From an uncultured Mycoplasmatota bacterium (GTDB lineage: Bacteria; Bacillota_I; Bacilli_A; RF39; UBA660): a stretch of DNA of 39,694 bases. The position numbers were made by a program, and so were the translations under genes. The notes beneath the pieces were generated by a model. The model was not told the origin of the DNA. It searched no databases and was given only the letters and a program-made list of their open reading frames with translations. This document shows positions 10,426 through 29,934 of the stretch, in pieces. The stretch spans positions 1-39,694 of the forward strand of contig CANRSQ010000006.1 of NCBI GenBank assembly GCA_947642475.1, written 5' to 3'. How positions within the stretch are numbered: the stretch's first letter is position 1; each line of letters opens with the position of its first letter.

Positions 10426-10460
10426 TAAATCCTCCTATAACTTACGATTTATCTATCACA

Positions 10461-10469
10461 ATTATATCA
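10461..10469 (-). promoter_or_regulatory. Extended -10 promoter of the ABC-2 operon
   Basis: The minus strand reads TGA-TATAAT, only a few bases downstream of the XRE operon terminator. The -35 region would overlap the terminator stem. Confidence 0.5.
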
Positions 10470-10471
10470 TG

Positions 10472-10498
10472 AAAAAAGCAGATTTTATAATCTACTTT
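10472..10498 (-). terminator. Terminator of the XRE operon at 10503-11607
   Basis: AAAGTAGATT pairs with AATCTGCTTT on the minus strand around a 4-base loop and continues into six T residues. Confidence 0.75.
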
Positions 10499-10502
10499 AT
10501 AA

Positions 10503-10769
10503 TTAATCTCTACTTCTAAAAGGATGTTTTAATTTATCTTTTATTCCTTTAGATAATATATTCATTGCTGTTTCGTAAATTTTATTTGCTTCTATATCTG
10601 TAATATCTAATTTAGTTATAAATTCATTTATCATTATTTCTTTGTTTTTCTTACCTATTAGAAAATTATCTTCAAGTATATCATTGATAATTGTGCATTT
10701 TTCTTCATCATAGTTTAACCTATTTTGTAATTCTTTTATAAATTCAGTTTTATTCATTTTCATCACCAT
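10503..10769 (-). CDS. Small helical protein translationally coupled to an XRE regulator
   Basis: This is an 88-residue, charged, all-helical protein. The start of the domain, 'MNKTEFIKELQNRLNYDEEK', superficially recalls HU proteins, but the DNA-binding beta arm is absent. I do not recognise a named family. It overlaps the end of the XRE gene by 20 bases. AAAGGAAAG before the first ATG supports the start at 10769; ATGs at 10763 and 10757 are alternatives. Tight coupling suggests it works with the regulator, perhaps as a partner or modulator. Confidence 0.65.
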   Translation of the reverse strand: MVMKMNKTEFIKELQNRLNYDEEKCTIINDILEDNFLIGKKNKEIMINEFITKLDITDIEANKIYETAMNILSKGIKDKLKHPFRSRD

Positions 10770-11607
10770 AAATCTTTCCTTTAGAATCTAATTGTATCTG
10801 ATAACCGTATTCAAAAATGTAAGATATACTAAAAATAATTAGTCCTAAAGTAATACTTGTAAGTTCTAGTTCAGCATTCAAATTAATACCCATAATTAGT
10901 TGAGTTAGTATTCCTAAAATATAAGGAACAACAATATAAAGTAATACATATAATGATATTTTTCTAATATATGAAACATTATCCATAGTAAATGGTGTAT
11001 CACATTCGTTAATGTTTTTAAATAGTTTGTATAAATAATTCATAATCATTCTAAGTAAAAATAATGATACAATCAAACTAATTAAAATTATTTCTGCATG
11101 AATAATTATTTCAGCATTAGTATTATTGTTTAAATAATCAGTTATTACCGATACATCTGTTTTAGTTACATCACCAATTACAATATCATTTGCTTTTAAT
11201 TCAAAACCGTCAATTCTAACATCTCTAAGTGCGAATGGAAGTGAAATTGCAAGAACTGCTAATACAGCTATACCAACCTCAGTCATAATTTCACCAATCT
11301 TTGAAAGTACATAAATAAATTTACTAATAATTTTCATCTTTTTTTGTTTTTCTTTTTTAAACTTAACTACACTCATTTTAATTTCTTCGTCTAATGAATT
11401 TATGTCGGTAAAATCTTCTTGGACTAAATCATTAATATTACATTTAAAAACATCACACAAACACATAATGTTTTGCATACTAGGAAAGTTTTCTCCTGTT
11501 TCCCATTTAGATACTGATTGTCTAGATACTCCTAGTTTTTCTGCAAGTTCTTCTTGCGATATTTTTTTACTTTTTCTTATTTGTTTTAAATTGTCTCCAA
11601 ATTTCAT
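10750..11607 (-). CDS. XRE-family regulator with membrane-spanning C-terminus
   Basis: Residues 1-65 form a Cro/CI helix-turn-helix ('EELAEKLGVSRQSVSKWETG', 'NFPSMQNIMCLCDVFKCNINDLVQ'). The remainder holds a hydrophobic helix near 112-128, an extracytoplasmic stretch to about 165, and three further helices near 168-190, 215-238 and 245-265. This is a membrane-bound DNA-binding protein, a type common in Bacillota. AAGGAG lies 8 bases before the ATG. It is followed by a coupled small gene and a terminator. Confidence 0.87.
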   Translation of the reverse strand: MKFGDNLKQIRKSKKISQEELAEKLGVSRQSVSKWETGENFPSMQNIMCLCDVFKCNINDLVQEDFTDINSLDEEIKMSVVKFKKEKQKKMKIISKFIYVLSKIGEIMTEVGIAVLAVLAISLPFALRDVRIDGFELKANDIVIGDVTKTDVSVITDYLNNNTNAEIIIHAEIILISLIVSLFLLRMIMNYLYKLFKNINECDTPFTMDNVSYIRKISLYVLLYIVVPYILGILTQLIMGINLNAELELTSITLGLIIFSISYIFEYGYQIQLDSKGKIYGDENE

Positions 11608-11709
11608 TAGACACTTCTCCTTTCCTATATTTAAGTTTATTAGAAAATAGGAATAAATTCTACCAACTTTTAAGTGCGTTTTGTTTTTATAACAAAAAAT
11701 TATTTGTAA

Positions 11710-12273
11710 TTATTCGCAAGTGCCATTTTGATTTTTAAAATAGTTATTTATATTTTTTTCTGTTTTTTCTATATCACTAAAATCAATATATTTATCTTTT
11801 AATTCTTTTTGTAATTTATTAGAACAATTTGAGCAGTTAAAATATCCGTCGGTTCCTACTTCAATAATATATTCATTATCGTTTAATGAGCAAGATAGTT
11901 CTATTGACTCGGTATGGGTAATTACTGGCTCCTTTTTAACTACGGCAAATGCGATAAAAGTTATGATATCAATTACTAAGAAAATTATAAATAATATTCC
12001 AATTACTTTTAATATTTTAATAATTATTCCAGCTAGTTTTTCAGTGTTGCTTACTTTTGCTTCTAATATTCCTTTAACATCGTTATCAATTAATTCATCC
12101 ACGCTGATGCCTAATGCTTTAGATAGTAATTTTAGTTGTTCAGGATTTGGAGTAGTTTCTCCTAGTTCCCAATTTGAAATGGTTTGTCTTGTAACGTTAA
12201 CTTTTTCTCCTAATTGTTCTTGTGAAAGACCTTGTTTTTTTCTTAATTTTAAAATATTATCTCCTAGTTTCAT
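11710..12273 (-). CDS. XRE-family regulator with one membrane helix and a CxxC tail
   Basis: The N-terminal Cro/CI domain carries 'EQLGEKVNVTRQTISNWELG' and ends 'NPEQLKLLSKALGISVDELI'. A single hydrophobic helix lies near residues 84-106. About 70 extracytoplasmic residues follow with a CSNC motif, which could form a disulfide or bind metal, and one more cysteine next to the C-terminus. The ATG at 12273 is chosen because GGAG lies 8 bases ahead; an upstream in-frame start at 12297 lacks support. No partner gene follows. The architecture suggests a one-component transmembrane sensor. Confidence 0.85.
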   Translation of the reverse strand: MKLGDNILKLRKKQGLSQEQLGEKVNVTRQTISNWELGETTPNPEQLKLLSKALGISVDELIDNDVKGILEAKVSNTEKLAGIIIKILKVIGILFIIFLVIDIITFIAFAVVKKEPVITHTESIELSCSLNDNEYIIEVGTDGYFNCSNCSNKLQKELKDKYIDFSDIEKTEKNINNYFKNQNGTCE

Positions 12274-12455
12274 TTTTGTTTCTCCTTTCACTAACAATTA
12301 TATATTAAAATTATTTAACAAATCTACCAAAAGGCTTTGGAACTTTGTCAAAGATTTTTAACATTTTATAATTATACTAGTTTCGATAATTCCTTATCAA
12401 TTATTTTTACTTATTTTCATTATAACATACAAGCAAAGTAATTTTTTAATAAACA

Positions 12456-12486
12456 ATAAAAAACGGATTATTTCTAATCCATTTTT
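12456..12486 (-). terminator. Terminator of the RhuM gene
   Basis: An 11-bp stem closed by a GAAA tetraloop is followed by a T-run on the minus strand, immediately after the RhuM stop codon. A near-copy ends the ABC operon at 13584-13613. Confidence 0.8.
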
Positions 12487-12489
12487 ACA

Positions 12490-13503
12490 TCATTTACTTT
12501 CTTCTAATAATTTAGTTTCCTTTAAAAAATTATCAAAATCGCTAACTAATACTCTATCTTGTTTAACTCTAAATTTGTCATATTCTTTATAAGCGAGTTC
12601 TTTAGCGACAACCATAGAAACTTTACCAGCATTTTGTAATATTTCCTTACCATTGAATTGTAGAAAAGCATTTAACTTTTCTATCCAATCATTCATTGTC
12701 ATAGCATTATGATTTTCAGCTTGCATTTCGGCATAATCTAAATACATTGTAACTATTCTATTTAAATCTTTAAGTTCTTTTTCACTCAAATAATTTTTAG
12801 CAATATCTACATCATATTTATAACTTGGCCCATTTGGTGAATTTTTCCAATTAGTTAATCCCATATTCTCTTTATCTGCACTTGCCCTATTATAAATAAT
12901 CTCTGCGGCTGTATTTCCAGTTACTGAATAATGTAATTTATTTTGAACGGTCTTAAAAAAGTTTTTAGTTATTTCACTATCTTTATCATAATCAATACTA
13001 CACTGTGAATATATATCTGTAATTTTTTGATAAAATCTTCTTTCGCTAGAACGAATATTTCTAATTCTCTCTAACGTTTCCTCAAAATAATCTTCGCCAA
13101 AGATATAATTAGGATTTTTTAATCTTTCATCATCCATTACTACACCTTTAATCATATATTCTTTGAGTACTTTTGTTGCCCATATTCTAAAGTTAGTAGC
13201 TTTCTTTGAATTTACACGATATCCTACTGCAATAATCATATCTAAGTTATATATTTTTACTGGTTTTTTTGAATTAGCAACGTCGGTTTTTCCGACAGTG
13301 TTACTCTCACACAACTCACCCTCATTTAAAATATTGTTTATATGTTCTGTAATAGTACTTCTGGCAGTTCCAAATAATTCAGCTATTAAATTTTGTGTTA
13401 ACCACAAATCTTTATCAATTAGCATAACATTAACCTTTACATCCCCATTATTATCTTTATAAATTAAAAAGTCATGTGAAGTAATTTGTAATTTTGTTTC
13501 CAT
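12490..13503 (-). CDS. RhuM family protein
   Basis: This is a full-length (337-residue) RhuM family protein. The N-terminal domain ('IYKDNNGDVKVNVMLID', 'LWLTQNLIAELFGTARSTI') looks like a winged-helix DNA-binding region. The central family motif is 'KKPVKIYNLDMIIAVGYRVN', followed by 'ATNFRIWATKVLKEYMIKG'. RhuM was named from a Salmonella pathogenicity island but has no proven biochemical role; homologues often sit in restriction or mobile loci. The ATG at 13503 has AAGGAGG 7 bases upstream; a GTG directly before it is less likely. The promoter carries the LexA-like box, so it may be damage-inducible. Confidence 0.9.
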   Translation of the reverse strand: METKLQITSHDFLIYKDNNGDVKVNVMLIDKDLWLTQNLIAELFGTARSTITEHINNILNEGELCESNTVGKTDVANSKKPVKIYNLDMIIAVGYRVNSKKATNFRIWATKVLKEYMIKGVVMDDERLKNPNYIFGEDYFEETLERIRNIRSSERRFYQKITDIYSQCSIDYDKDSEITKNFFKTVQNKLHYSVTGNTAAEIIYNRASADKENMGLTNWKNSPNGPSYKYDVDIAKNYLSEKELKDLNRIVTMYLDYAEMQAENHNAMTMNDWIEKLNAFLQFNGKEILQNAGKVSMVVAKELAYKEYDKFRVKQDRVLVSDFDNFLKETKLLEESK

Positions 13504-13541
13504 CACTATTCCTCCTTACTCCTAATTATTCTCTTAAAACA

Positions 13542-13571
13542 ATTATAACATTTGTTCGTAGATTAAATCAA
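13542..13571 (-). promoter_or_regulatory. Promoter containing a LexA/DinR-like box (site 2, RhuM)
   Basis: On the minus strand, TTGATT (13566-13571) and TATAAT (13542-13547) are 18 bp apart. CGAACAAATGTTAT (13545-13558) overlaps the -10 box exactly as at site 1. Transcription would start about 35 bases before the RhuM start codon. Confidence 0.7.
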
Positions 13572-13583
13572 TAAAAATATAAT

Positions 13584-13613
13584 AAAAAAACAGATTATTT
13601 CTAATCCATTTTT
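13584..13613 (-). terminator. Terminator of the TetR-controlled ABC operon
   Basis: The stem-loop with a GAAA tetraloop and T-run overlaps the last permease's stop codon region. It closely resembles the hairpin after RhuM. Confidence 0.7.
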
Positions 13614-14760
13614 AAATAACTTTCTGTTTATATTTAGAAATAATATTATTTAAAATAATAAATAATATAGAAAAACCAAGAACTACTAACATATTGATAA
13701 AGATTGGGTGCAGACTAGTAAAATCTATAACCTCTATTGTCTTAAGTAAATCGTTAGAATTAATATACCAATAAGTAGGTAGTATATGTGCGAAAGTTAA
13801 AACAGAATTAGGAAGCCACTCGGCAGGTACAAAAGCCCCGCAAAGGAAAGAAGAACCAAGTGCCACCACATTAACAATTCCACTAACCGCATTTTTATTA
13901 GTAACAAGAGTACTTATAAATAAGGCAATCGTTAAACAACAAAAAGTAAATATAAACGAATTAAGCATATAAACAAGTCCCCTACTTGTAAACATAATAT
14001 CGCCAAGCATGATTATTCCAAGAAGGATAAAGAATACCCATAAGACGAACGAATAACCAAAACTAGCAAATAAAAGATCTCTATTATATTTTTCATAATT
14101 CATACTACTAACGATAGTTCTTTTATTAACCGTTTTTTCTTTAAAACTAGATAATACTAAACAAATAATAAAAATTATTACTGCCATAATACTGTAACTA
14201 GCAAATGAAAAATATGTAGAAGCATTAGATACTTTCGTAGTATCTAGTTTAGAAGTAATCTCTATCTTTGCATCCTTAGAAAGATTATTATTAATAAGTT
14301 TAATAAACTCATCTTCACTGCTTACACCAGTCTTATAAATATTTTGTACCTGGATATATCTCTTAAGCATCATTTCCGCTAAACTAGCCTGATAATCACC
14401 AGTAGACTTAATATCAATTTCGGGATTTTTGCCATTCATAATATCCTTACCATAATTTTTAGGAATACAAATAACATAATTTACGTTTCTATAAAACAAG
14501 GCATCATTAATTTCGTTTTTAGTTTTAAGATTATCAATGATATTACTATTATCGGAAATATATTTAACTAAATTATCAGAAACTTTGTTTCCTTTATCAT
14601 TATTAACAATTAAAACGTCAGGCTTACTATCTTCAAAATTAACATTGTTATCAGAAGTAGACATATTAATTGCCCCAAAGATAATCAAAATCATTGAATA
14701 TAAAATTATTGTCCCTTTATATTTTAGTAAAACTTTCCAAAAAGATTTAAATACTGTCAT
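13612..14760 (-). CDS. ABC-2 family transporter permease (second of two)
   Basis: This 382-residue permease has ABC2_membrane_3 layout. One N-terminal helix lies near residues 13-32, followed by a roughly 145-residue extracellular domain and then five or six helices from about 183 to the C-terminus. The conserved 'FLCGAFVPAEWLP' re-entrant segment, common to drug and haemolysin exporters, is near residue 310. It overlaps the end of the other permease gene by 14 bases, so the pair is co-translated and probably forms a heterodimeric channel with the upstream ATPase. Confidence 0.88.
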   Translation of the reverse strand: MTVFKSFWKVLLKYKGTIILYSMILIIFGAINMSTSDNNVNFEDSKPDVLIVNNDKGNKVSDNLVKYISDNSNIIDNLKTKNEINDALFYRNVNYVICIPKNYGKDIMNGKNPEIDIKSTGDYQASLAEMMLKRYIQVQNIYKTGVSSEDEFIKLINNNLSKDAKIEITSKLDTTKVSNASTYFSFASYSIMAVIIFIICLVLSSFKEKTVNKRTIVSSMNYEKYNRDLLFASFGYSFVLWVFFILLGIIMLGDIMFTSRGLVYMLNSFIFTFCCLTIALFISTLVTNKNAVSGIVNVVALGSSFLCGAFVPAEWLPNSVLTFAHILPTYWYINSNDLLKTIEVIDFTSLHPIFINMLVVLGFSILFIILNNIISKYKQKVI

Positions 14761-17523: not shown

Positions 17524-19461
17524 TTATAAATCTCCCTTATAAAAGTATATTTTCATAGCCTCTTCACTATAACTAGGTTTTGAAATGTCTATATTTAATA
17601 ATTTTGAAATATGATAAATAAAATATTGCATCGCAATTAATAAATCATATTCAGCAAGTAATCCATCATATCTACTTTCAATAATAATGTTTTCGCCCTC
17701 AGATAAATATTTTAATAACTTCTCTTCATATAAAGATTCGTTTTTTGTTTTTAAATAAATATTCATTTTGCTGCTTAAATGTTCATAGTTTATAAATCTT
17801 CCATGAGAAAAATTTTTCTTTTCATGTAGTAATACATTGAACACACCAGATTCTATAAATGTACTTTCTAAATCTATAGCAGCAGAAGAAGTAAAATCGC
17901 CATGGAATATATTTATTATATTTCCTCTTTTAAAAATACTCTTTAAATTTCTTTTATCTTCTTTGAATAAGTTATCAAAATATTTTTTCCAATATGTTAT
18001 AGAATTTTTAATAAATTCATCTATATCATTTCGTTTTAACTGTTTAAAATATAAACTTAAAAATAAACTAGCCGGTGCCATAACGCCCTCAAACGATATA
18101 AAACCTCTTTCTTTACCTTTATTTGAAGATGTACGATATGAAATAACATTATCAATATTGGTTTTTTCACATACCTTGTTAATCTCACCTTTAGTAATCA
18201 TAATTTTTTTACTATTTTCAATATTTTCTGTACCTACTAGTAAATCATTAGTAATTCCTGAATAAGAAAACATAAAACATTTATCTACTTTAGAATTGTT
18301 TCGATATTTAATGTTTCTAGGTAAATCAGCATAAGTATTCACACCATATAAGTAATTAATTACTTTAGATGCAAAGTTTGCAGCAGCAAATGATCCGCCA
18401 GTTCCTACAAATACACAATTACTTAATTTTTTAAATGGAATCTTATTTAATTCGTTTTTTGCTTCACTATTTACAGCATTTAATATTCTAGTCTCTAAAT
18501 TATTAACATTAATAGTATATCTTTTAGGAAGTTTTCTTTCGTGTATAACAAAATCTTCACACGTACACATTTGATTATCTTGTTTTACTTTGTATAATTT
18601 ATGTAAATGTCCTCTAGCGCCTATTTGTTTAACTACTTTTTGAGTTAATTTTATAGCCTTATCAAAAGTATTATCAATGTAATTCTCATCAATTATTTGA
18701 TTATTTTGTAAATATTCATAAATAAAAACTGAAAAGAAGGCATCCCCTGCTCCGTTAGCATCAACTTCTTTAGAAACTTTATTTAGTTTTTTATGTACCT
18801 TTTTATCATTAAAAACAAAATCAGCGCCTTCTTTTCCTCTCGTTATTATAATTAATTTAGAGTTAATTAATTTCGAAATATTTTTTATATCAAATAATTT
18901 TAATAGATATTTTTCTACTCTTTCATTTAAATTTACTATTTCAAATGGCCTTTTTAAAATATCTTTTATTTCCTTTTTTGAATATTTTTCCAAATCGTAA
19001 TATTGCCCCAAATCCAGCATAATTTTATTTTCAGTTTTATTTATTATTTCTATATTAACTTTATTTAAATTATCTAATACAAGCATATCCTCTTTTGATA
19101 TATTTTCTAATACATCACTAACAATCATTTTACTTTCATCATACCAATGTTTTTTATTACAAATAGGACAACGTTTTTTAGAAGTGAAACCATTTTTTGT
19201 CATATTGATATGAAAACATCTAGTATTTACATTCTCTAGTTTACAAATACCCGAAGTATCTACATTTAAATCGCTTAAACTTTTTATAGAAGTTTCACCA
19301 GCAATGTCATCACCACAAACACCAATAACAGATGTGTCGGCTCCTTGGCCTGCTAAATTGGCAACTATATTATGTGAAGACATTCCACCATTTACTCCTA
19401 ACAGTTTATTATCTTCATAAACATAATCTAATACTAAATCTCCTATACTTACAACCTTCAT
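17524..19461 (-). CDS. PfkB carbohydrate kinase-SIS domain fusion protein
   Basis: This is a 645-residue two-domain enzyme. Residues 1-300 are a ribokinase/PfkB fold: 'GDLVLDY' (7-13), 'GGMSSHNIVANLAGQG' (25-40), and the anion-hole/catalytic motif DANGAGD with the base Asp240. Residues about 340-640 are a SIS (sugar isomerase) domain with 'FVGTGGSFAAANFASK' near 351-366, as in GlmS and FrlB. Cys98-x2-Cys101, inserted in the kinase domain, and Cys299-x-Cys301 at the domain junction might together bind zinc. Kinase and SIS proteins work in sequence in fructoselysine or amino-sugar use (FrlD/FrlB), so the fusion may phosphorylate and then isomerise or deglycate a sugar conjugate. The AGGAG site is unusually far (16 bases) from the ATG. 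It follows a WYL regulator. Confidence 0.85.
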   Translation of the reverse strand: MKVVSIGDLVLDYVYEDNKLLGVNGGMSSHNIVANLAGQGADTSVIGVCGDDIAGETSIKSLSDLNVDTSGICKLENVNTRCFHINMTKNGFTSKKRCPICNKKHWYDESKMIVSDVLENISKEDMLVLDNLNKVNIEIINKTENKIMLDLGQYYDLEKYSKKEIKDILKRPFEIVNLNERVEKYLLKLFDIKNISKLINSKLIIITRGKEGADFVFNDKKVHKKLNKVSKEVDANGAGDAFFSVFIYEYLQNNQIIDENYIDNTFDKAIKLTQKVVKQIGARGHLHKLYKVKQDNQMCTCEDFVIHERKLPKRYTINVNNLETRILNAVNSEAKNELNKIPFKKLSNCVFVGTGGSFAAANFASKVINYLYGVNTYADLPRNIKYRNNSKVDKCFMFSYSGITNDLLVGTENIENSKKIMITKGEINKVCEKTNIDNVISYRTSSNKGKERGFISFEGVMAPASLFLSLYFKQLKRNDIDEFIKNSITYWKKYFDNLFKEDKRNLKSIFKRGNIINIFHGDFTSSAAIDLESTFIESGVFNVLLHEKKNFSHGRFINYEHLSSKMNIYLKTKNESLYEEKLLKYLSEGENIIIESRYDGLLAEYDLLIAMQYFIYHISKLLNIDISKPSYSEEAMKIYFYKGDL

Positions 19462-19498
19462 AAAATTAATTCATCATCTCCTCATTTTTAACATACCA

Positions 19499-19532
19499 CA
19501 AAAAAAGGAAACATTTGGTACTTATTGTTTCT
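19499..19532 (-). terminator. Terminator of the WYL regulator gene
   Basis: GAAACA pairs with TGTTTC across a 12-base loop and is followed on the minus strand by a run of seven T residues. The stem overlaps the stop codon. Confidence 0.65.
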
Positions 19533-20121
19533 CTTTTATTAATTTTATTCTTTCAATTTCAAAATGTCTTATATCATTTCTAAGTTCACAAAAGGCTGTA
19601 ATATAAACCTTATCACCATACTTAAAAATATGTAATGGATGTATCCATCTTTCTTTTCTTTCCCCATTAATATCTTCATAAACTATTTTAATTCTAGAGT
19701 TATCATTCATATACTTTTCTATTAAAGAAGTTAATTCATTTTTGTCAGATTCATCTAAATCATCAATGTATTTACTTTTTTCTTCTTCTATTTCATAAAT
19801 GTTTTTTACTTTTTCCATTAAAACATTAAACTTATCTAAGTTTTGAAAATCTGTATTTTCCAATTTTGAATAAACGCTTTCTAATAATTGTAAATCATAC
19901 TTATTAAATTTATTATAAAATCCGTTATTTTTAAGTAAAAAATAGCCACCATTGGGTCCCATAAATGTATCAATAAATATGCCTGCGTTTTCTAATTCTT
20001 TTTTATAATATTTTATCATTCGCTCAGTAACGCCTAATTTTTGTGCTAATTCATGGGCGGTATATTTGTTACCTGTATTTAGATAATCAAGCATTAATAT
20101 TACATTAGAAATTTTACTCAT
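19522..20121 (-). CDS. WYL domain transcriptional regulator (HTH_11-WYL)
   Basis: This 199-residue protein starts with a winged helix ('YTAHELAQKLGVTERMIKYY', wing 'GPNGGYFLL'). A helical linker follows, and then a WYL domain ('NSRIKIVYEDINGERKERWI', 'HPLHIFKYGDKVYITAFCEL'). WYL domains sense nucleotides or ligands and control stress and defence genes. The C-terminal WCX extension is short or absent. The ATG at 20121 has GGAGG 10 bases upstream; the TTG start at 20136 would overlap it. It lies directly before the PfkB-SIS gene, separated by a terminator, and may control it. Confidence 0.87.
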   Translation of the reverse strand: MSKISNVILMLDYLNTGNKYTAHELAQKLGVTERMIKYYKKELENAGIFIDTFMGPNGGYFLLKNNGFYNKFNKYDLQLLESVYSKLENTDFQNLDKFNVLMEKVKNIYEIEEEKSKYIDDLDESDKNELTSLIEKYMNDNSRIKIVYEDINGERKERWIHPLHIFKYGDKVYITAFCELRNDIRHFEIERIKLIKEKQ

Positions 20122-20146
20122 ACTACCTGCCTCCAAATCTAATAAT

Positions 20147-20215: not shown

Positions 20216-20241
20216 CAAAAAACAAACTAAACTTAGTTTGC
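20216..20241 (-). terminator. Terminator of the GT2-kinase-Nudix operon
   Basis: CAAACTAA pairs with TTAGTTTG on the minus strand and is followed by six T residues. It closes the four-gene operon that begins at 23770. Confidence 0.8.
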
Positions 20242-20252: not shown

Positions 20253-20747
20253 TTATATATTAGGTTTATCATAAATTATATGTTCTAATTGATTGCTATC
20301 ATCACTTTTGATTTTTTCTTTTAAAATATCAAGTAAAAAATTATAATTATCAATTTCTGAAACTTTTGCCCACTTAAATTTAGATTTACCATCATGTTCT
20401 TCATCTAATGAATCATATTCTTTATCATCAGTATAACCTGTTTCATTTTCATCAATTTGCGTATTATAATAAAAACCAATTTCATGATATTTAGTTCCAT
20501 TAGGAAGGTTTGTAATTGCTTCTAATATATATTTTAAATGTACATCACATTCAATTCCTAATTCTTCTATCAATTCTCTTTTTATAGCACTATTAGTATT
20601 CTCCAAAGTCTCTAATCTTCCTCCTGGTAACATATAAATATCATGTTTTTGTCTTTGTACTAAAACCTTAGTATGGTCTTGGTTAAAAATTATTGCTCCA
20701 ACTCTTACACCAAACCTAGTTGTATCATCTTTTATTGTAATTACCAT
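20253..20747 (-). CDS. Nudix hydrolase
   Basis: This 164-residue protein carries a complete Nudix box: Gly43-x5-Glu49-x7-Arg57-Glu58-x2-Glu61-Glu62-x-Gly64-Ile65. It would hydrolyse a nucleoside diphosphate linked to another moiety, with metal bound by the box glutamates. The preceding 'YMLPGGRLE' is typical. GGAGG lies 6 bases before the ATG. It is the last gene of an operon with a glycosyltransferase, a HipA-like kinase and a P-loop kinase, which hints at a nucleotide-sugar or modified-nucleotide substrate. That hint is only inference. Confidence 0.92.
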   Translation of the reverse strand: MVITIKDDTTRFGVRVGAIIFNQDHTKVLVQRQKHDIYMLPGGRLETLENTNSAIKRELIEELGIECDVHLKYILEAITNLPNGTKYHEIGFYYNTQIDENETGYTDDKEYDSLDEEHDGKSKFKWAKVSEIDNYNFLLDILKEKIKSDDSNQLEHIIYDKPNI

Positions 20748-20786
20748 ATTGTCCCTCCATTCTATATACCATTATATCATGTTTTC

Positions 20787-21374
20787 CTATTTTCTATAAA
20801 TAGAATTACATTTTTCTCTCTTATTTAATCCTGCAATTTCTATTATTTGGTTCGTAACCTCCTCTAATGTCATATTAGAAACATCAATTTTTTTCGTATC
20901 TAAATCTGAAAAATCAGGAATTTTTTTTACTGCTCCATTAAATATTTCTTTTATACAACCTTTACAATACTCATCATCCGATAATTCTTTAGATACTTTT
21001 TCAATTCTTTCCACTAATCTACTATAAATTACATCAGTATCACACATTAAAGTAATGTTATAAAATTCAAATTGATGTCCCTGTTCTTTCAAATAATCAA
21101 TAATTTTATCAATAACACTCTTTTGATGTAAAATCCATGAAAATATAATATTTTCAAAGTTTTCATTATGTAAATGATTATTAAGCACATAACAAATATT
21201 ATCAACAGTTCTTTCCATCGTTTCATCATCAAAATGCCAATCAGATCCCTGTTCAAAGCACCAATCTCCATCTAACATCACACTAGAATTTAATTCATTT
21301 AAAAGTTTTCTTGCAGTTGTAGTCTTTCCTGAACAAGTTGTGCCACCTATAAAAATCAGTTTCTTTGTTTTCAT
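20787..21374 (-). CDS. P-loop kinase-like NTPase (AAA_33/shikimate-kinase fold)
   Basis: This is a 195-residue NTPase with Walker A Gly11-TTCS-Gly16-Lys17-Thr18 and a 'LDGDWCF' motif near residue 35 that matches the DxD-type substrate site of small-molecule kinases. A likely lid region contains 'VERIEKVSKELSDDEYCKGC'. The CKGC cysteines could bind metal. Proteins of this kind phosphorylate nucleosides, shikimate-like compounds or antibiotics. It begins 13 bases after the HipA-like gene and ends 39 bases before the Nudix gene, so all are one transcription unit. The substrate is unknown. Confidence 0.85.
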   Translation of the reverse strand: MKTKKLIFIGGTTCSGKTTTARKLLNELNSSVMLDGDWCFEQGSDWHFDDETMERTVDNICYVLNNHLHNENFENIIFSWILHQKSVIDKIIDYLKEQGHQFEFYNITLMCDTDVIYSRLVERIEKVSKELSDDEYCKGCIKEIFNGAVKKIPDFSDLDTKKIDVSNMTLEEVTNQIIEIAGLNKREKCNSIYRK

Positions 21375-21387
21375 ATTAAAGTCCCTT

Positions 21388-22773
21388 CTATATATTCATA
21401 ATATGTCTTTTTACTAATGTATGATTATCCTTTTTATTAACTCTTGAATAGAAATTTTCTATAAACTTTTTAAAAGCATATAATATTTCTTTTTTGTAAT
21501 TATCAGATAAAGTAAAATCATGATCTTTCTCTATCTCGTTAAAAATATTTTGAATACTATCTTCAGTAATAAATTGCATATAATAATCTATAATTTCATC
21601 ATTGTTTCCTTCGTAGTACAAATTTAATAATGCTGTAACCTTATCTTCTTGATAATTTTGACCGTAAGTTTGTAACAACAAAGTATGATTATTGAATAAA
21701 TTTTCTTCGCTTTGTTCTTCACTAGGTATTTGATTAAATCTTGGTTTATCAAAATGTAGCATATTACCATTATCAAAAGCCATTAATCTTATGTTTCTAT
21801 TTTGTTCATTTACAATTATTCCCCAATTATATGGGTTTCTATCAGGCTGTAATGTCATCAAGTCATAGATATATAATGTATTTATTTCTGACAATATATT
21901 TTCATTATAATTATACCCATTTTTTAAACAGAATTCTTTTATAGAAGATACCGTATCTTCTATATTACATCTTCTTACTAATTCCAATTTGTCTATATTT
22001 TCATCTGCACACGCTAATTGTGCAGATGAAATAAATTTTTCATCCTTATTTATAAAATTATAAGTTATTACTCCTTTATTTCCTTTATAAGTTGCTAAAT
22101 CATAATAACAAAATGGAAGTCCAAATTTTTGCATCAAATACATATTGAAAATTTCTGTATAACTTTCAAAACTACTTGGAGTTTCAGTTTTAAACATAAT
22201 ATATTCATTAAGCCAAAATTTATTTCTTGATCCTCCAATTTCTGGTCTTATTTTATCTAATTCAACATAATCATCAATAGATAGAAAACCGTTATTTCTA
22301 TTAGCACACTTTGTTAAATACTTAAATATAATAGGAAAGTTCTCTTCATATTCCTGCGGATCATCTGTCATGTGAAAAACATTGTCATAACTAACTTGCT
22401 GATCGTATATATGTTCATCTTGTGGTATTACTAAATGTCTATATTTTCGTCTTATACCAACTTTTAAATCTAAAACGTTTTGATACATATATTTTCCTTT
22501 TTGTGGTAAATATATTTTTTTATCATCTGGCAATTCAAGTTGCATAATATAAATATAATTATCTTTATATTTATCAACTAGACCATTGATTTTATATTCT
22601 GCTTTCCAAAGTTCTTCTTCTGAAAACGGATACAATTTTTTAATAAAATCAACATAATCTTCTCCTAAATCAACTTTCCAAAGATGATTAATTTTTGCTT
22701 GTTGTTGTATATCGTTAATTGCATTTTCAGCACTTTCACCTATAGAGTTCCACAAAACACCAAATAGCCTCAT
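21388..22773 (-). CDS. HipA-like kinase with an unrecognised N-terminal domain
   Basis: This is a 461-residue protein. The C-terminal part (about 190-461) resembles the HipA/PI3K-like kinase fold. The loop Asp311-Arg312-Asn313-Pro-Tyr-Asn316-Trp-Gly318 corresponds to the DRHxxN(W/F)G catalytic loop, and Phe333-Asp334-Asn335-Gly336 to the metal-binding motif. The usual histidine after Asp-Arg is replaced by asparagine. The first 180 residues ('MRLFGVLWNSIGESAENAIN', 'NVFHMTDDPQEYEENF') match no family I can name. GGGGG within the final codons of the glycosyltransferase gene serves as its ribosome binding site, and the genes are 4 bases apart, so synthesis is coupled. Kinase assignment is moderately sure; the target is unknown. 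Confidence 0.65.
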   Translation of the reverse strand: MRLFGVLWNSIGESAENAINDIQQQAKINHLWKVDLGEDYVDFIKKLYPFSEEELWKAEYKINGLVDKYKDNYIYIMQLELPDDKKIYLPQKGKYMYQNVLDLKVGIRRKYRHLVIPQDEHIYDQQVSYDNVFHMTDDPQEYEENFPIIFKYLTKCANRNNGFLSIDDYVELDKIRPEIGGSRNKFWLNEYIMFKTETPSSFESYTEIFNMYLMQKFGLPFCYYDLATYKGNKGVITYNFINKDEKFISSAQLACADENIDKLELVRRCNIEDTVSSIKEFCLKNGYNYNENILSEINTLYIYDLMTLQPDRNPYNWGIIVNEQNRNIRLMAFDNGNMLHFDKPRFNQIPSEEQSEENLFNNHTLLLQTYGQNYQEDKVTALLNLYYEGNNDEIIDYYMQFITEDSIQNIFNEIEKDHDFTLSDNYKKEILYAFKKFIENFYSRVNKKDNHTLVKRHIMNI

Positions 22774-22777
22774 TTTT

Positions 22778-23770
22778 TTACCCCCAATTTTTTTTTAATA
22801 TTTTATCAATTTGTGTAACAACATTTTGAATATCTATTCCTTCTTCAATAGAAATAAAATATTTATCCATATTTTTTACTGACTTTGCCTTATCAAGCAT
22901 TTGCTTTACATCATCTAAATATTCAAGTTCAAACTTTTCTTTTGCTAAAGTATCCAAGCATATCAATAAATTATGTAAAAGTGCTGCATTGTAATGATTT
23001 ATTGCTTCGTTAGTTAAAACTGGATACATATTTTTTATATCATATAATATCTTATCTGCATAGTGTATTAACAACATACTGTCTTTTCCAAAATGAGTAT
23101 GAACTAATGAATTCGGATTATTAAAGAAATGATTATAATTAGATCTTATATCGTGACAAAATACATTACTTTTTATTAATGAGTCCCATAAGGAAATGAA
23201 ATCTTCATTAATATTAGTTGCAGGAAACGTTAGATCTTTTATTAAATCTAGTTTATATAATTTTCCCCAAACTGCATTTGAAAGTTCAAAAGATAAGTAT
23301 CTCTTTAACATTTCTTCTTTATTTAAAACAACTATTTCTTCACCTACTGAATAAGGAACTATACTGCCATTTTCAAAAATAACTTTAATCCCACCTTCAA
23401 CAACACTTGCGTCATATTTAATCGCTGTTTCATATAAGTTCTTCAAAAAATTCTTGTCCAAACTATCATCACTATCAACAAATGTAACGAATTTTCCAGT
23501 CGCCTTAGATAAGCCAGCATTTCTAGCCTCTCCTACTCCACGATTTTTTTGATTTATCAATAAAATTCTATTATCGGTTTGTTGGTATTGTTTACAAATA
23601 TCAATACTATTATCGGTTGAACCATCATTAATAAGTATTATTTCCAATTTTTTGTATGTCTGATTAATAACCGAATTTAAAGTATTTGCCAAAGTATCTT
23701 CTGAATTATATATTGGAATAATAACCGATATGTATTCGTTATCTAAATTATTATTTATATTTTTTTCCAT
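22778..23770 (-). CDS. Family 2 glycosyltransferase
   Basis: This is a 330-residue enzyme with a GT-A fold in its first 200 residues: 'VIIPIYNSEDTLANTLNSV', 'LINDGSTDNS' and the metal-binding DSDD (99-102). It transfers a sugar from a nucleotide-sugar donor. The C-terminal 130 residues are helical without membrane segments, so it is probably cytoplasmic or peripheral. AGGGGG lies 6 bases before the ATG. It leads the operon continuing with the HipA-like kinase, P-loop kinase and Nudix genes. There are no wzx/wzy or other capsule genes next to it, which argues against an ordinary capsule locus. Confidence 0.92.
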   Translation of the reverse strand: MEKNINNNLDNEYISVIIPIYNSEDTLANTLNSVINQTYKKLEIILINDGSTDNSIDICKQYQQTDNRILLINQKNRGVGEARNAGLSKATGKFVTFVDSDDSLDKNFLKNLYETAIKYDASVVEGGIKVIFENGSIVPYSVGEEIVVLNKEEMLKRYLSFELSNAVWGKLYKLDLIKDLTFPATNINEDFISLWDSLIKSNVFCHDIRSNYNHFFNNPNSLVHTHFGKDSMLLIHYADKILYDIKNMYPVLTNEAINHYNAALLHNLLICLDTLAKEKFELEYLDDVKQMLDKAKSVKNMDKYFISIEEGIDIQNVVTQIDKILKKNWG

Positions 23771-23793
23771 TATTTCCCCCTTAATTTTTTATT

Positions 23794-23821
23794 ATTATAT
23801 ATTATAATAATAAAAAGTCAA
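23794..23821 (-). promoter_or_regulatory. Promoter of the GT2-kinase-Nudix operon
   Basis: On the minus strand TTGACT (23816-23821) and TATAAT (23794-23799) are 16 bp apart. The -35 box lies inside the 3' arm of the HelD terminator. The leader would be about 17 bases. Confidence 0.6.
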
Positions 23822-23871: not shown

Positions 23872-25962
23872 TTACTCAACAATATATAATTCATGCAACG
23901 CACGTGTCATTGAAACATATAATAATTTCAAATCCTCTACTTTTTCTTTATCAAATTTGGATTTACCTACGTCAAGTAGTATAACAACATCAAACTCCAA
24001 GCCTTTAGATAAATAACTGCTTATGCAACAAACCGAATTAGTGGTGTTTACATTGTTTGTATTGATTTTGTCTATTTCAATACTTTTAGATAAATTATCA
24101 TATACTTCATCTACACTAACCTGATTTTTACATATAATTGCAATACTTTTATGCCCGTTTATCAATGAAGTATTGACTATATTAATAATGTAATTGTATA
24201 AATTATCTAAATGAATGTTACAATGTTGAACATCCTTTCCATGTCTGATTACTGGAACAGCGAGAGAGTATCCTAATAATTCATTAATTTTATTAGCCTC
24301 ATTCATTATTTCAATAGTTGTTCTATAACTCTTATTTAAATATAACATTTCACAGTTACCATCAAACACAGGAACAATAATTTCTTCCCATGAATGTATG
24401 CTTTTATAAGAATATAGAGACTGGGCTAAGTCACCATAGATACTAAATGTAGAGTTATACATGATAACCTTTAATACATAAAATGTAAAAGTGTTATAAT
24501 CTTGTGCCTCATCTATAACAACATGGCGATATTTTGAATATTCTTCTGAACCAAATAAATTATACTGGATATACATAAGTGGCGTTAAATCTTCTACACT
24601 CATTTTTTTATTCTTTATTTGTTTTTGTTTTTGCTCTAAATCAAAATTATTATCTCTCAATTTATCGTTTTCAGCCAATATTTCTATATAAATTTGAAAT
24701 GGGGTTTTTATTAGTGATTTAAAATATGATTTTAAAATATTATTACCTGAAACATTCAATTCCTTTTTTAATAATTCTCTATCTTTTACCTTTTGACTTT
24801 GAATATCCTTAGTAATATCGTTTGATAATGCCTGAGATAAAATATTTTCTAATATATTATTCTTTCTTTCATCAATTTTCTTTGATAAAATAGATATTGT
24901 TTTATCAACCCTAGATTTTAAAGATTTATGTACCTTATCATTTATAGATAGAAATGTTTCCCTAATTATATTTGCATCTAATATTTTAAAGTTTTTAAAA
25001 TACAAATGTTCATTTGGAATTAAGGTTTCATAATACTTTTCTAAATATTTATCTATTTCCTTTCTAAATTCCATAGAAGTAATATAATAAGAAAATATAT
25101 CTTTTTTACCATTTACAACATCACTCAAAATATCCAATGAATTCCTTACATCCATTTTTTCCTCTAAATAAGTTTGTGCAAAATCAATAAAATCATATTG
25201 AATAACACCATTAGCGTCTAAATCTGGTAACACACTTGAGATGTAGTTACTAAAAAACTTATTTGGTCCAATTACCATATATTGATCTGGGCTATAGATA
25301 TCACGATTATTATAAACTAAATATGATGTTCTGTGTAAAGCCACTGATGTTTTTCCACTCCCAGCAACACCCTGTGTAATTGAATTACAGCTTAAATCTT
25401 TCCTTATAATTTGATTTTGTTCACTCTGAATAGTGGAAACAATGTTTTTTAATCTGTTATCAGCACTCACACCTAAAAAAGGTTTCAAAAGTTCATCATT
25501 ACTAACAGTATCAACATCAATAAAATTTAATAAGTTTCCATTTTCTATTTCATACTGTCTTTTTACAGTTAGTTTTCCTTCAATTTTTCCCTCTGGCGCA
25601 ATATAAGAGGTTTCTCCAATGTTGGAATCGTAATATAAAGTTGCGATAGGCGCTCTCCAATCAACCGTAATTATTTCATTATCGTAATTTGTTACACCAA
25701 TTTTTCCTATATAACAAATGTCCTTTATACTATCTTTTTTGTTTTCAAAATCAATTCTCGCAAAATAAGGTTTATTTTTACTACTATCTAAAACTTCTAT
25801 TTTTTTGGTTAATCTTTCTTTTTCTTCTAACATTTTATCATAATTATTTGGATAAAACTTTGGAAGATTTTTTATTTTTAAATTTGTATCACCAATAATT
25901 TCACTATACTCTTTTTGGACATATTTTAGATGTTTATTTTCCGATTCTAATTCTTTTTCCAA
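23872..25962 (-). CDS. helD: HelD-type UvrD/Rep superfamily helicase-like ATPase
   Basis: This roughly 696-residue protein fits HelD, the ATPase that frees stalled RNA polymerase from nucleic acid. The N-terminal coiled coil, which enters the polymerase secondary channel, covers residues 1-60. The segment 'DWRAPIATLYYDS' follows. The ATPase has Walker A 'QGVAGSGKTSVALHR', Walker B 'HVVIDEAQDY', and C-terminal motifs 'YLSKGLEFDVVILLD' and 'LLYVSMTRALHELYI'. A TTG start at 25962, with AGGTGA 5 bases upstream, is favoured; a GTG at 25971 is in frame. It probably has its own promoter at 25993-26021. It has no functional link to the next operon except for close packing. Confidence 0.88.
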   Translation of the reverse strand: MEKELESENKHLKYVQKEYSEIIGDTNLKIKNLPKFYPNNYDKMLEEKERLTKKIEVLDSSKNKPYFARIDFENKKDSIKDICYIGKIGVTNYDNEIITVDWRAPIATLYYDSNIGETSYIAPEGKIEGKLTVKRQYEIENGNLLNFIDVDTVSNDELLKPFLGVSADNRLKNIVSTIQSEQNQIIRKDLSCNSITQGVAGSGKTSVALHRTSYLVYNNRDIYSPDQYMVIGPNKFFSNYISSVLPDLDANGVIQYDFIDFAQTYLEEKMDVRNSLDILSDVVNGKKDIFSYYITSMEFRKEIDKYLEKYYETLIPNEHLYFKNFKILDANIIRETFLSINDKVHKSLKSRVDKTISILSKKIDERKNNILENILSQALSNDITKDIQSQKVKDRELLKKELNVSGNNILKSYFKSLIKTPFQIYIEILAENDKLRDNNFDLEQKQKQIKNKKMSVEDLTPLMYIQYNLFGSEEYSKYRHVVIDEAQDYNTFTFYVLKVIMYNSTFSIYGDLAQSLYSYKSIHSWEEIIVPVFDGNCEMLYLNKSYRTTIEIMNEANKINELLGYSLAVPVIRHGKDVQHCNIHLDNLYNYIINIVNTSLINGHKSIAIICKNQVSVDEVYDNLSKSIEIDKINTNNVNTTNSVCCISSYLSKGLEFDVVILLDVGKSKFDKEKVEDLKLLYVSMTRALHELYIVE

Positions 25963-25992
25963 GCAAATCACCTACTTTTTAATATCATTAAT

Positions 25993-26161: not shown

Positions 26162-27931
26162 TTAAAGATTTTCATTTAAAATTCTATCTAATTCTTTCTT
26201 TAAATCAGATTTTTTAATTATATCAGTAAAACCATCTTTTAAATAATGTTTCTTAATAAATTCTTTATTATCATTTATCATAACTATTACTGGAATATTA
26301 AAAGATTTATTTTTCTGTAATTCTCTAAGTACAGTTAATGCACTATCAGTATTAGTTTCATCATCTAATATTATTAAATCAAATTTATAATTTTCATTTA
26401 ATTTTTGAAGTGCATCCTTTCCATACAAAGAACTACTAACATGCATTCCTTTAGTTTCTAAATATTTCTTTATATCAGATAATTCTTTCGCATCATCATC
26501 AACGACCATTATATTACTACCTTTATTTAAAGTACTTTCATAAAGTGTTAATTTTTTATTAATTTCTTTATTTTGATGACTTGCTTCATAAATCTTTTGA
26601 TCTAAAACAATATTTACCATGGTACCTTTATTTTTCTCACTTTTAATCATAAAACTACCACCAATTTGATTAACTAATGATCTAACATTAATTAAATCTA
26701 AAATAGATTTATCATAATTAGATTCTTCAGGTAATAATTCTAAACTTAATATTTCATTTACTTTATCAAGGCTAATCCCTTCTCCACTATCAGTAATATC
26801 AATATTAAATCTGCATGTATCATATTTAATGATAGTATTTACGTCAAATGAAATAAACCCTTCTTTTGTATGCTTAATACTATTTTCCAAAACTGATGAA
26901 AGTATTTGTTTCACTTTAATAGAATCACCATAAACATACTGCGGTATGTTAGAACACAAATTATATTCAAATTTTATATTTCTACTCTTTTTATTTTCAG
27001 TCATACCTTTTACTTCATCGAATAAGTTCTTAGGATTATATTTTGAATTATAAACTTTTTCGTTCATAGATGCCATAGAACTAACATCAAGAGTATCATT
27101 TATAATATGATTTAAGTTTTTACCTAAAATATTAATTTTCATTAAATCCTCATTAGTTTTTTTAGAAGAAATCAAATTTATCTCATTAACAGATGACTTC
27201 ATATCTTGTGACAATTTAAACAAAAAGTTAGATGTACTTTCAGCATTACTTTCTATAATTCTTTTATTCTTATATAATTCTTCCATAATTTTTACATCAG
27301 GATTTTCAACAGTATGATACATCAAACAAGTCACAATTGCCTCTGCTGTTATTAAAAGCAATAAAGTAGGATTTAGAAATTGTATAACCATAACTATGCT
27401 TCCAAAAATAATAAATACAAATAATGGTAAAAACCTAGTTTTCTTAATTCTTTTAAAATTAATAAATAAACAATATAAAATAAATATTATAAAAATAGAT
27501 GACATTACATATACAAAATTAGTTGCTATACCATAATTAAAGACTCCGTCTTCTCCATTATGTATACTTAAAGGAAGCAATATAATCGCAAATACACATG
27601 CTAAATAAAATAAAAGTAAAAAGGTTTTAAGTTGTTTAGTAATTGTCTTACCGAATGATATAACAAATATATATAATGTAAAAATAGCAAGCCAACTAAA
27701 ATAATAAATTAAGCTCATTTTTGAAAAAAACATTATCAAAATAGAATTATTGAAAAAATAAGTAAATGCAATATATACTAAAATATCAAATATGAGTCCA
27801 AATAAATTGCATATTATCAAGACAGCATAAACATTATTCTCTGTACTTTTAACTCTTTGCTTTCTAAAATAGAAAAAACAAATTATAACAACAAAACATA
27901 ATGAGCATATTGAAAATGAAACACCAACCAT
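26162..27931 (-). CDS. Hybrid sensor histidine kinase-like protein lacking the phosphoacceptor His
   Basis: This is a 589-residue protein with seven predicted N-terminal membrane helices (residues about 5-205), a short helical linker, a dimerisation region, an HATPase domain and a C-terminal receiver domain. The HATPase has an intact N box ('SSVLENSIKHTKEG') and G1 box ('DITDSGEGI'). The receiver keeps the acidic pair ('VVDDD'), an Asp in 'LIILDDE' and a Lys in 'DIIKKS'. In the dimerisation helix the usual S-H-E is S-Q-D, so Gln242 replaces the phosphoacceptor. Autophosphorylation in the normal way is unlikely; it may be a pseudokinase or use a partner. The ATG at 27931 has AAGGAGG 9 bases upstream; an earlier in-frame start at 27964 lacks one. 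Confidence 0.85.
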   Translation of the reverse strand: MVGVSFSICSLCFVVIICFFYFRKQRVKSTENNVYAVLIICNLFGLIFDILVYIAFTYFFNNSILIMFFSKMSLIYYFSWLAIFTLYIFVISFGKTITKQLKTFLLLFYLACVFAIILLPLSIHNGEDGVFNYGIATNFVYVMSSIFIIFILYCLFINFKRIKKTRFLPLFVFIIFGSIVMVIQFLNPTLLLLITAEAIVTCLMYHTVENPDVKIMEELYKNKRIIESNAESTSNFLFKLSQDMKSSVNEINLISSKKTNEDLMKINILGKNLNHIINDTLDVSSMASMNEKVYNSKYNPKNLFDEVKGMTENKKSRNIKFEYNLCSNIPQYVYGDSIKVKQILSSVLENSIKHTKEGFISFDVNTIIKYDTCRFNIDITDSGEGISLDKVNEILSLELLPEESNYDKSILDLINVRSLVNQIGGSFMIKSEKNKGTMVNIVLDQKIYEASHQNKEINKKLTLYESTLNKGSNIMVVDDDAKELSDIKKYLETKGMHVSSSLYGKDALQKLNENYKFDLIILDDETNTDSALTVLRELQKNKSFNIPVIVMINDNKEFIKKHYLKDGFTDIIKKSDLKKELDRILNENL

Positions 27932-27987
27932 CAAAAAAGCCTCCTTATTATTACTAAAAAACATTATACACTATATTACCTTAAAAC

Positions 27988-28020
27988 ACAAAAAACATCC
28001 AATAAAAATTGGAATATTTT
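27988..28020 (-). terminator. Terminator of the acyl-CoA-synthetase-like gene
   Basis: AATATTCCAAT pairs with ATTGGATGTT across a TTTT loop on the minus strand and is followed by TTTTTT. It starts next to the stop codon. The T-run overlaps the weak -35 box of the histidine kinase gene. Confidence 0.75.
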
Positions 28021-29895
28021 TTATTCGTTAAATCTTATTTGATTTACTTTTACTAAAGTTTTGCCTTGTTTTCTTGAAGTAGAAAAATAATCAATATTAC
28101 TTGCATCAATTAAATAATTGATATCAATTTTACCACCCATATTATGAGGAATATTTTCAACAAATATAAATTCATAAGGAATTAATGGGCCATCAAGATT
28201 TTCAATACATAATAATTCTAATTTCTTTCTTGCGTTTTCTATATCTTGACCTTCTATTAATTTTACAAAAGCCACTGGAACTTTCTGTTCATCTGGATGT
28301 TCAATTCCGGCAACAGCACAGTCATCTACAAATGGTAAATTTAATATAAAATTCCTTATTGCTTTTGGATGAACATTATGACCTGATCTCATAAAGACAT
28401 CTTTAATTCTGCCAGTAATAAAGAAATGACCATCTTCATCAACATATCCATAATCTTTTGTATGAAGCCAAATTTTTCCATCTGAATGTTTTCTTAATAC
28501 CTTTTCAGTTTCTAAAGGCTTATTTAAATATTCTTTCATCACGGTAGGACCAGACACGCATATTTCACCGACTTCATTATATGGAAGTTCTTCATTAGTT
28601 TCTGAATCAAAGACAGACATATTTTCGAAAGGTAAAGGTATACCTTGTGAACCTAATTTATAAGAACCAACTTTACTATATGTAGCCGCTCCTCCATTTT
28701 CTGTCATTCCATAACCTTGCCTTATAAATATATCTTCACCAGTTATTTCTTCAGTATAATCATCATCTACCACATTTAAATATTTTTCAAGATCTATATC
28801 AAAGTCGGCACCACCAGATACAAAGTTTTTTCCATATGAAGGGAAATCATTACCGTCTTCTATTTTTTTACGAAGGTTTTCATAATGTATAGGACCGCCA
28901 ATAAAATGATCAGGTTTATATTTAGAAAGTAAATTATAAACATCAGTTTCCATAGTTGGAATCAAAGCCACATTTAGTCCTAATGCTGTAGAATAATGCA
29001 TCACTGAAAAACCATACCCTATAGATACTATCAAATCATCCATCAGTTTATCCTTTGGACTATAATTTAAGCCTCCTGCTAAGTGCTGAAGAGTCATTGC
29101 ATTAGCATTCTCGTTAGTAATAACAACATCACTAGGAATTCCAGAAGTGCCACTTGTTCCTATAACTGCCGCTGGACTATTTTTTTCATAAACTGGAGTT
29201 AATAATTCTGGTATTTCTTCTTTTAATTTTACAAACTCATTCCAAGTTACAATTTTTTCATTATAAGATATTTTTGAATTTCCAGATTTTTTCCCTTTAA
29301 TTCTATCAATTAAATCTTTAAAAAATAAAATTTGTTTTGGAATACTTTCAGTTCCGTTTAACGGCACTATAGTTTCAACATTTTTATTTGTAAGTAACAT
29401 CTTACTATATCTTTCATAAAAACCATCAAATATAAATACTTTTTTAACTTCATTTTCACTAATTATTCTATCTAATTGTTTAGGCGCAAGCATAGGTGTA
29501 ATAGGATATACAACGGCTCCCAGAATATTACTAGCATATATTAATTCACGGGCCTCTGGAATTTGAGGCAAAATCAAGATAACCATTTCATTCTTTTTTA
29601 CCCCTAACCTATTTAACGATTTTGAATAATTATTTATACATTCAAATAGTTTTTTATATTTTATTTTAATATCAAAGTAAGTAAGTGCTGTATCATTCAT
29701 TCTATCCTTATTAAATTCCTCTATTAATTGATACATTGACATTGCTGGAATATCGTATTCATCAGCGCCACTCTCATAATATTTAAGCCATGGTCTATCA
29801 ATACTTGCATATCCAGTTAATTTTTTACTACCATCTTTATCTAATGTAAAAGAAGTTTCTCCTACTTGCTCATAAACTTCAAGATTTTTTATCAT
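28021..29895 (-). CDS. AMP-binding (acyl-CoA synthetase-like) adenylate-forming enzyme
   Basis: This is a 624-residue member of the ANL superfamily, which activates a carboxylate as an acyl-adenylate. Motifs seen are A3 'GTSGTSGIPSDV', A5 'GYGMTENGG', A7 'LHTKDYGYV', A8 'TGRIKDVFMRSGHNVHP' and A10 'GGKIDINYL', which holds the catalytic lysine. The P-loop lysine normally in 'TSGTTGxPK' is replaced by Ser/Asp, which is unusual. No carrier-protein or thiolation gene is adjacent, so the acceptor is unknown. The ATG at 29895 has AGGAGG 7 bases upstream; an upstream in-frame start at 29922 would include it. The promoter is at 29935-29963. Confidence 0.88.
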   Translation of the reverse strand: MIKNLEVYEQVGETSFTLDKDGSKKLTGYASIDRPWLKYYESGADEYDIPAMSMYQLIEEFNKDRMNDTALTYFDIKIKYKKLFECINNYSKSLNRLGVKKNEMVILILPQIPEARELIYASNILGAVVYPITPMLAPKQLDRIISENEVKKVFIFDGFYERYSKMLLTNKNVETIVPLNGTESIPKQILFFKDLIDRIKGKKSGNSKISYNEKIVTWNEFVKLKEEIPELLTPVYEKNSPAAVIGTSGTSGIPSDVVITNENANAMTLQHLAGGLNYSPKDKLMDDLIVSIGYGFSVMHYSTALGLNVALIPTMETDVYNLLSKYKPDHFIGGPIHYENLRKKIEDGNDFPSYGKNFVSGGADFDIDLEKYLNVVDDDYTEEITGEDIFIRQGYGMTENGGAATYSKVGSYKLGSQGIPLPFENMSVFDSETNEELPYNEVGEICVSGPTVMKEYLNKPLETEKVLRKHSDGKIWLHTKDYGYVDEDGHFFITGRIKDVFMRSGHNVHPKAIRNFILNLPFVDDCAVAGIEHPDEQKVPVAFVKLIEGQDIENARKKLELLCIENLDGPLIPYEFIFVENIPHNMGGKIDINYLIDASNIDYFSTSRKQGKTLVKVNQIRFNE

Positions 29896-29934
29896 TATAA
29901 TTCCTCCTAAAATATACAGCAAACTACGAGTGTT

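Follow-up and report, generated by a model that had tools for sequence, protein, structure and literature searches.

The described systems closest to the locus considered here are the CtkA kinase of Helicobacter pylori with HipA and HipT, the PADLOC candidate system PDC-M03 (M03A plus M03B), nucleoside diphosphate kinases (NDKs; PF00334), small-molecule kinases of the APH/fructosamine-kinase/choline-kinase type, and the loci for exopolysaccharide, capsule and nonulosonate. Kinases of the CtkA/HipA type are usually read as toxin or defence proteins. Here we analyse a stretch of 39,694 nucleotides (hereafter the window; contig CANRSQ010000006.1 of assembly GCA_947642475.1) from an uncultured Mycoplasmatota bacterium of the RF39 lineage, in which such a kinase, fused to an NDK-like domain, lies in a minus-strand operon (20253-23821) together with a GT2 glycosyltransferase, a P-loop small-molecule kinase and a Nudix hydrolase. 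The first-pass annotation, made from the sequence, could place this combination in no known system, and we agree: it is not PDC-M03, HipBA or a Wzx/Wzy locus, and no description of it was found in the open literature, subscription papers lying outside the search. Our best explanation, to which we give an even chance, is that the operon represents one version of a biosynthetic module that recurs, freely rearranged, among RF39-like Bacilli and whose probable output is a decoration, phosphorylated or nucleotide-activated, on a surface glycan or glycoconjugate. The core of the module would comprise GT2, the NDK-fold domain, a protein-kinase-fold kinase and the P-loop kinase, usually with Nudix nearby; the protein-kinase-fold member would be APH-like in most loci and CtkA/HipA-like in the window and in one same-genus relative.

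The four minus-strand open reading frames, their coordinates and the gaps of 4, 13 and 39 bases between them (GT2/kinase, kinase/P-loop and P-loop/Nudix) are as first annotated. GT2 (22778-23770; 330 aa, GT-A fold) carries the motifs NDGSTD and DSDD, the latter a DXD-type motif within FVDSDDSL, and matches PF00535 with E=1.8e-39 and 135.8 bits against a cutoff of 23.3, as expected of this family. It is followed by the gene for a 461-aa protein (21388-22773), in which residues 1-165 and ~165-461 retrieve separate sets of relatives in genome searches, indicating two domains, and for which no Pfam or NCBIfam family was matched. The P-loop kinase (20787-21374; 195 aa) has the Walker A motif GTTCSGKT and matches AAA_18 (2.1e-12) and Zeta_toxin (3.4e-7), with the adenylate-kinase-like 4cvn as its best PDB match (E=0.005). 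The Nudix hydrolase (20253-20747; 164 aa), possibly a separate transcription unit, matches NUDIX (PF00293; 5.6e-11, 43 bits) and has an intact Nudix box, GRLETLENTNSAIKRELIEELGI, that conforms to GX5EX7REUXEEXGU.

The recurrence of this set in other genomes supports a module. Searches with the NDK-like domain turned up 26 loci in a single public scan, each in an uncultured metagenome-assembled genome titled as Bacilli-, Clostridia-, Mycoplasma- or Erysipelotrichaceae-type, and found carriers in 15 of 386 genomes of the family, in 14 of 288 in a draw from the order and in 3 of 346 in a draw from the class, 1 of these outside the family. Within 6 kb of the domain, in 27 non-redundant loci with near-duplicates removed, we found Nudix in 22, radical SAM genes in 15, GT2 in 11, the P-loop kinase in the same 11, an APH-fold kinase in 10, NeuB in 10, NeuA in 9 and HelD in 7. 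GT2, the P-loop kinase and Nudix thus occur together in 11 of the 27, and in 10 of these 11 an APH-fold kinase is added. One type of locus (type A) has a single P-loop (CoaE-like)::GT2::NDK-like protein, then an APH/fructosamine-kinase-like protein, often radical SAM, and Nudix; another (type B) has NeuB, usually NeuA, the NDK-like domain, often radical SAM, and Nudix. The fusions vary among loci (P-loop::GT2::NDK-like, NDK-like::kinase and P-loop::GT2), while the set itself is constant.

The closest counterpart is found in the same genus as the window (genome G392, contig C13; locus L191), where the full set is present in a different order and with a different fusion: Nudix (10376-10867), directly after it the NDK-like domain (10954-11454), then a CtkA-like kinase (11447-12367), a P-loop::GT2 fusion (12345-13877) and a YgjV membrane protein (13877-14380). 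YgjV proteins (PF10688) follow the module in L049 as well as in L191, with look-alikes in L050, L066 and L067. In a tree that included the 29 best other GT2s of the family, the window GT2 fell into one clade with all 15 NDK-like-domain-associated GT2s (support 97/93, 96% of bootstraps; 93/67 prior to adding L191), and in the kinase tree the window and L191 kinases were sisters (92/93, 94% of bootstraps). A clade joining the two NDK-like domains was not recovered in the weakly resolved domain tree. The recurrence in other genomes, the L191 locus and the GT2 and kinase clades indicate that the set is real, co-inherited and rearranged; chance stacking of unrelated genes is rejected by the trees and L191 for GT2, the NDK-like domain and the kinase, with Nudix excepted. 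The homologues are therefore found together elsewhere, as the first-pass annotation required of a true system, and no standard exopolysaccharide locus explains their order; conservation extends to the set, but order and fusions are shuffled.

Other carriers of the NDK-like domain lie beside NeuB/NeuA, CMP-sugar synthetases, HAD phosphatases and a polysaccharide pyruvyl transferase-like protein, or beside UDP-glucose-dehydrogenase-, epimerase- and flippase-like genes. In L141 (G517:C44; 7204-8841), from a larger genome of another family, a 545-aa protein ends in the domain, and its gene belongs to a polysaccharide locus that also encodes UDP-glucose-dehydrogenase-like, epimerase, glycosyltransferase and flippase-like proteins. 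In L192 (G783:C16; 4905-10594) it is fused to a radical SAM enzyme beside nucleotidyltransferase-like, YcaO and C39-like peptidase genes, in a setting that resembles a modified-peptide cluster. A further cluster type is L069 (7374-11286), where a NodU-like carbamoyltransferase joined to an ATP-grasp-like part precedes a stand-alone NDK-like domain and a methyltransferase.

The 461-aa protein had been described as a HipA-like kinase, which fits its C-terminal two thirds, CtkA being the closest solved relative, but misses the NDK-like N-terminal domain, the most informative region. The C-terminal domain (aa ~165-461; 21388-22299) is a CtkA/HipA-like kinase as judged from sequence and structural comparison: it matches PDC-M03A of PADLOC (E=1.8e-17), its top match is CtkA in both the profile search against PDB (3akj, 5e-19) and Foldseek (5e-9), and its catalytic residues are intact (K195 in FKTE, DRNPYN at 311 and DNG at 334), so that the fold and the catalytic Lys, DRxxxN and DNG-type residues of HipA/CtkA-like kinases are all present. 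It shares fold and catalytic motifs with CtkA, HipA and HipT, but is fused to an NDK-like domain and sits among GT2 and P-loop kinase genes, and a protein substrate is not implied. No HipB-like antitoxin or HipS partner occurs among the operon genes, and a HipBA toxin-antitoxin system is rejected on that ground. In most module loci its place is filled by APH/fructosamine-kinase/choline-kinase-like small-molecule kinases (PF01636, 1.2e-16 in L066); these belong to a different kinase family, and that they substitute for it in function is what we infer. If this swap is functional, the CtkA-like kinase would act on a small molecule here.

The N-terminal domain (aa ~1-158; 22300-22773) belongs to an unannotated domain family, no Pfam or NCBIfam match having been found. 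An alignment of 25 sequences shows invariant W8, Y48, K61, K104, R108, H134 and E141, and the pattern N-x-x-H-x-[TS]-D with an invariant His (DNVFHMTDD in the window), whose likeness to the NDK signature N-x-x-H-G-S-D was noticed prior to modelling. The AlphaFold2 (AF2) model (pLDDT 90.7, pTM 0.86) retrieved with Foldseek 50 top PDB matches that were all NDKs or NDK-domain axonemal proteins (best E 5.4e-4, prob 1.00, TMq ~0.4-0.5). A canonical NDK is encoded elsewhere in the window's genome (G000:C13:7184-7582), although a sample of 80 genomes from the class yielded NDK in only 7.

What might such a module do? With two or three phosphoryl-transfer domains for each glycosyltransferase, the set looks suited to phosphorylating a small substrate step by step, which would give GT2 an activated or phosphorylated building block to work with. 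From the domain content we infer the following steps. The protein-kinase-fold enzyme would phosphorylate a small polar substrate, such as a sugar, an amino-alcohol or a nucleoside; additional phosphoryl transfers, or the binding of the nucleotide, would fall to the P-loop kinase and the NDK-like domain; GT2 would move an activated sugar onto an acceptor that carries or receives the phosphorylated group; and Nudix would clear nucleotide by-products, the outcome being the surface decoration proposed above. It would be tempting to go further and regard the NDK-fold domain as a new histidine-dependent phosphoryl-transfer family that gene fusion has joined to glycosyltransferases, CtkA-like kinases and radical SAM enzymes and that relays phosphate from the protein-kinase-fold enzyme to an unknown phosphorylated or nucleotide-activated glycan building block; we regard this extension as speculative and rather unlikely. 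The earlier suggestion that the operon makes or controls a modified nucleotide-sugar, or glycosylates a target, is borne out in part, namely as to functional linkage, through recurrence and the GT2 and kinase clades. GT2 here and NeuA/NeuB, HAD phosphatase and UDP-glucose dehydrogenase-like genes in related loci recall exopolysaccharide, capsule and nonulosonate loci; unlike these, the operon has two or three phosphoryl-transfer domains for a single glycosyltransferase and has no flippase or polymerase. No Wzx or Wzy gene is found among the four genes or in the neighbours that were scanned, as had been remarked of capsule transport and polymerase genes, and a standard Wzx/Wzy exopolysaccharide locus is rejected for lack of both in the operon; flippase-type Polysacc_synt proteins are encoded elsewhere in the genome. 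RF39 envelopes have been predicted to be thin-walled and mostly peptidoglycan-containing, with standard teichoic acid synthesis predicted absent in novel families (Field et al. 2024, PMC10868615), which makes unusual surface polymers plausible.

Several observations weigh against this explanation. Carriers are rare (the 15 of 386 family genomes above), which would make the product dispensable, and no substrate, product or transport step could be assigned. The Nudix proteins of different loci belong to different subfamilies, and the window's own Nudix occurs without the module in the sister species G398. Sequence support for NDK homology is weak outside the N-x-x-H motif: hhalign (P=0.067) aligns the His motif only, Pfam NDK reaches at best E=0.063, in 1 of the 25 members, and, judging the correspondence by eye, Trp seems to stand where NDKs have Lys12, with the Kpn loop seemingly lost. 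NDK homology from sequence alone is rejected as not significant. Because sequence methods detect the motif alone and these NDK features are apparently lost, the domain is NDK-like in its predicted fold, and NDP kinase activity is not implied; it shares fold and motif with PF00334 but has its own invariant W, Y, K, K, R, H, E set.

The patchy distribution would also fit an anti-phage or toxin-antitoxin system in which the CtkA/HipA-like kinase is a toxic effector modulated by the other enzymes. The kinase matches M03A and the Nudix matches the candidate family PDC-S07, Vibrio phage records of short length (14-15 kb) contain distant relatives of the kinase, a WYL regulator adjoins, and a restriction/methylation-like gene neighbours the related site L105. 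Yet M03B is missing from the window's four genes, where the kinase sits instead with GT2, P-loop kinase and Nudix, and since M03B was found beside a relative in L012, its absence is informative; membership in PDC-M03 is rejected, the M03A match standing alone. Moreover, the closest kinase relative, in L191, lies within the same biosynthetic set, an APH-fold kinase replaces it in most loci, and viral contigs gave no match to the NDK-like domain or the kinase. We therefore hold a defence role to be improbable. A mobile or phage origin is likewise rejected: kinase and NDK-like domain were unmatched in viral contigs and plasmids, and the only phage matches were four weak ones to the kinase domain alone. 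In contrast to the surface glycan that we favour, the module could make a secreted specialised metabolite, a modified peptide or small glycoside, as the YcaO and C39-peptidase genes of L192, the carbamoyltransferase-like/ATP-grasp protein and methyltransferase of L069 and the radical SAM genes of 15 of the 27 loci would suggest. The window operon, however, shows no precursor peptide or dedicated exporter, and in most other carriers one finds GT2 or nucleotide-sugar genes instead, which makes this product unlikely in our view.

The ground beside HelD, the helicase gene immediately upstream of GT2 (23872-25971, minus strand; PDB 6wvk, E=9e-79), bears on how far Nudix belongs to the module. In G398, HelD (69% identical) is directly followed by a Nudix gene 92% identical to the window's in amino acids and 90% in nucleotides; GT2, kinase and P-loop are missing, and DNA homology (90%) begins at the P-loop gene end, so that these three are present or absent as a block. 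G386 has a P-loop and Nudix pair beside a HelD remnant, with neither GT2 nor kinase, and different NDK-like cassettes adjoin HelD in G401 and G392. Taken together, these arrangements indicate that the HelD-adjacent ground is a cassette site in the genus. It is conceivable, if doubtful, that a three-gene cassette (GT2, NDK-like::kinase, P-loop) was inserted between HelD and an unrelated resident Nudix, a mere neighbour. The G398 and G386 arrangements and the Nudix gene's own extended -10 site speak for this; but Nudix lies near the NDK-like domain in 22 of the 27 loci and directly before it in L191, and the P-loop and Nudix pairing in G386 suggests that those two belong together. Since the sister species keeps Nudix without the other three and a promoter-like site precedes it, Nudix may be separate from, or not co-transcribed with, the other genes here. 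The NDK-like domain repeatedly has as its neighbour a HelD-type helicase, of the kind associated with RNA polymerase: in the window and in L045, L049, L050, L054, L063, L065 and L066 (7/27 loci).

The same evidence bears on transcription, for which one promoter and one terminator had been proposed. The main promoter-like site, TTGACT-16-TATAAT (23794-23821, minus strand), which would serve GT2, kinase, P-loop and perhaps Nudix, matches the consensus at 11 of 12 positions, is the joint best of the scan and lies at a suitable distance from the gene. Sites of the listed quality are not enriched (40 found, 36.6 expected from shuffles), so what makes this site convincing is its position rather than the statistics. 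A second site, TTTATA-18-TATAAT (20771-20800, minus strand; 10/12) with a TG that extends the -10, precedes Nudix, and its TGATATAAT also occurs in G398, where Nudix stands without the other three genes; the claim of a single promoter is doubtful for this reason. The AT-rich hairpin with a T-run at 20216-20241 (minus strand), read from the letters, is a plausible but weak terminator that scores under the scan threshold and is absent from its terminator list. Each gene has a plausible ribosome binding site, that of the kinase (GGGGG) lying inside the last GT2 codons, as reported at first. The GC content of the operon genes (0.235-0.272) matches that of the window (0.267), and a foreign origin by composition is rejected.

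The NDK-like domain family can be used to find envelope or specialised-metabolite loci in a large, uncultured lineage of gut bacteria about whose surface chemistry very little is known, and the possibility that a CtkA/HipA-type kinase stands in for a small-molecule kinase suggests caution in automated defence annotation.

A near-perfect 13-bp inverted repeat lies within the kinase coding region (21999-22031) and on the plus strand reads as a terminator. Upstream on the operon's strand, a histidine kinase/response-regulator protein and an AMP-binding enzyme are encoded (26162-29922); the same pair lies upstream of ParB-like, CMP-sugar synthetase and Nudix genes in L140 (5729-13884) and is also present in L112. 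On the other side (17524-20136), the WYL regulator adjoins a PfkB fusion with a SIS-like C-terminal part, a pair kept in several same-genus genomes (L102, L103, L104 and L105) with varying neighbours, among them a DNA methyltransferase-like gene.

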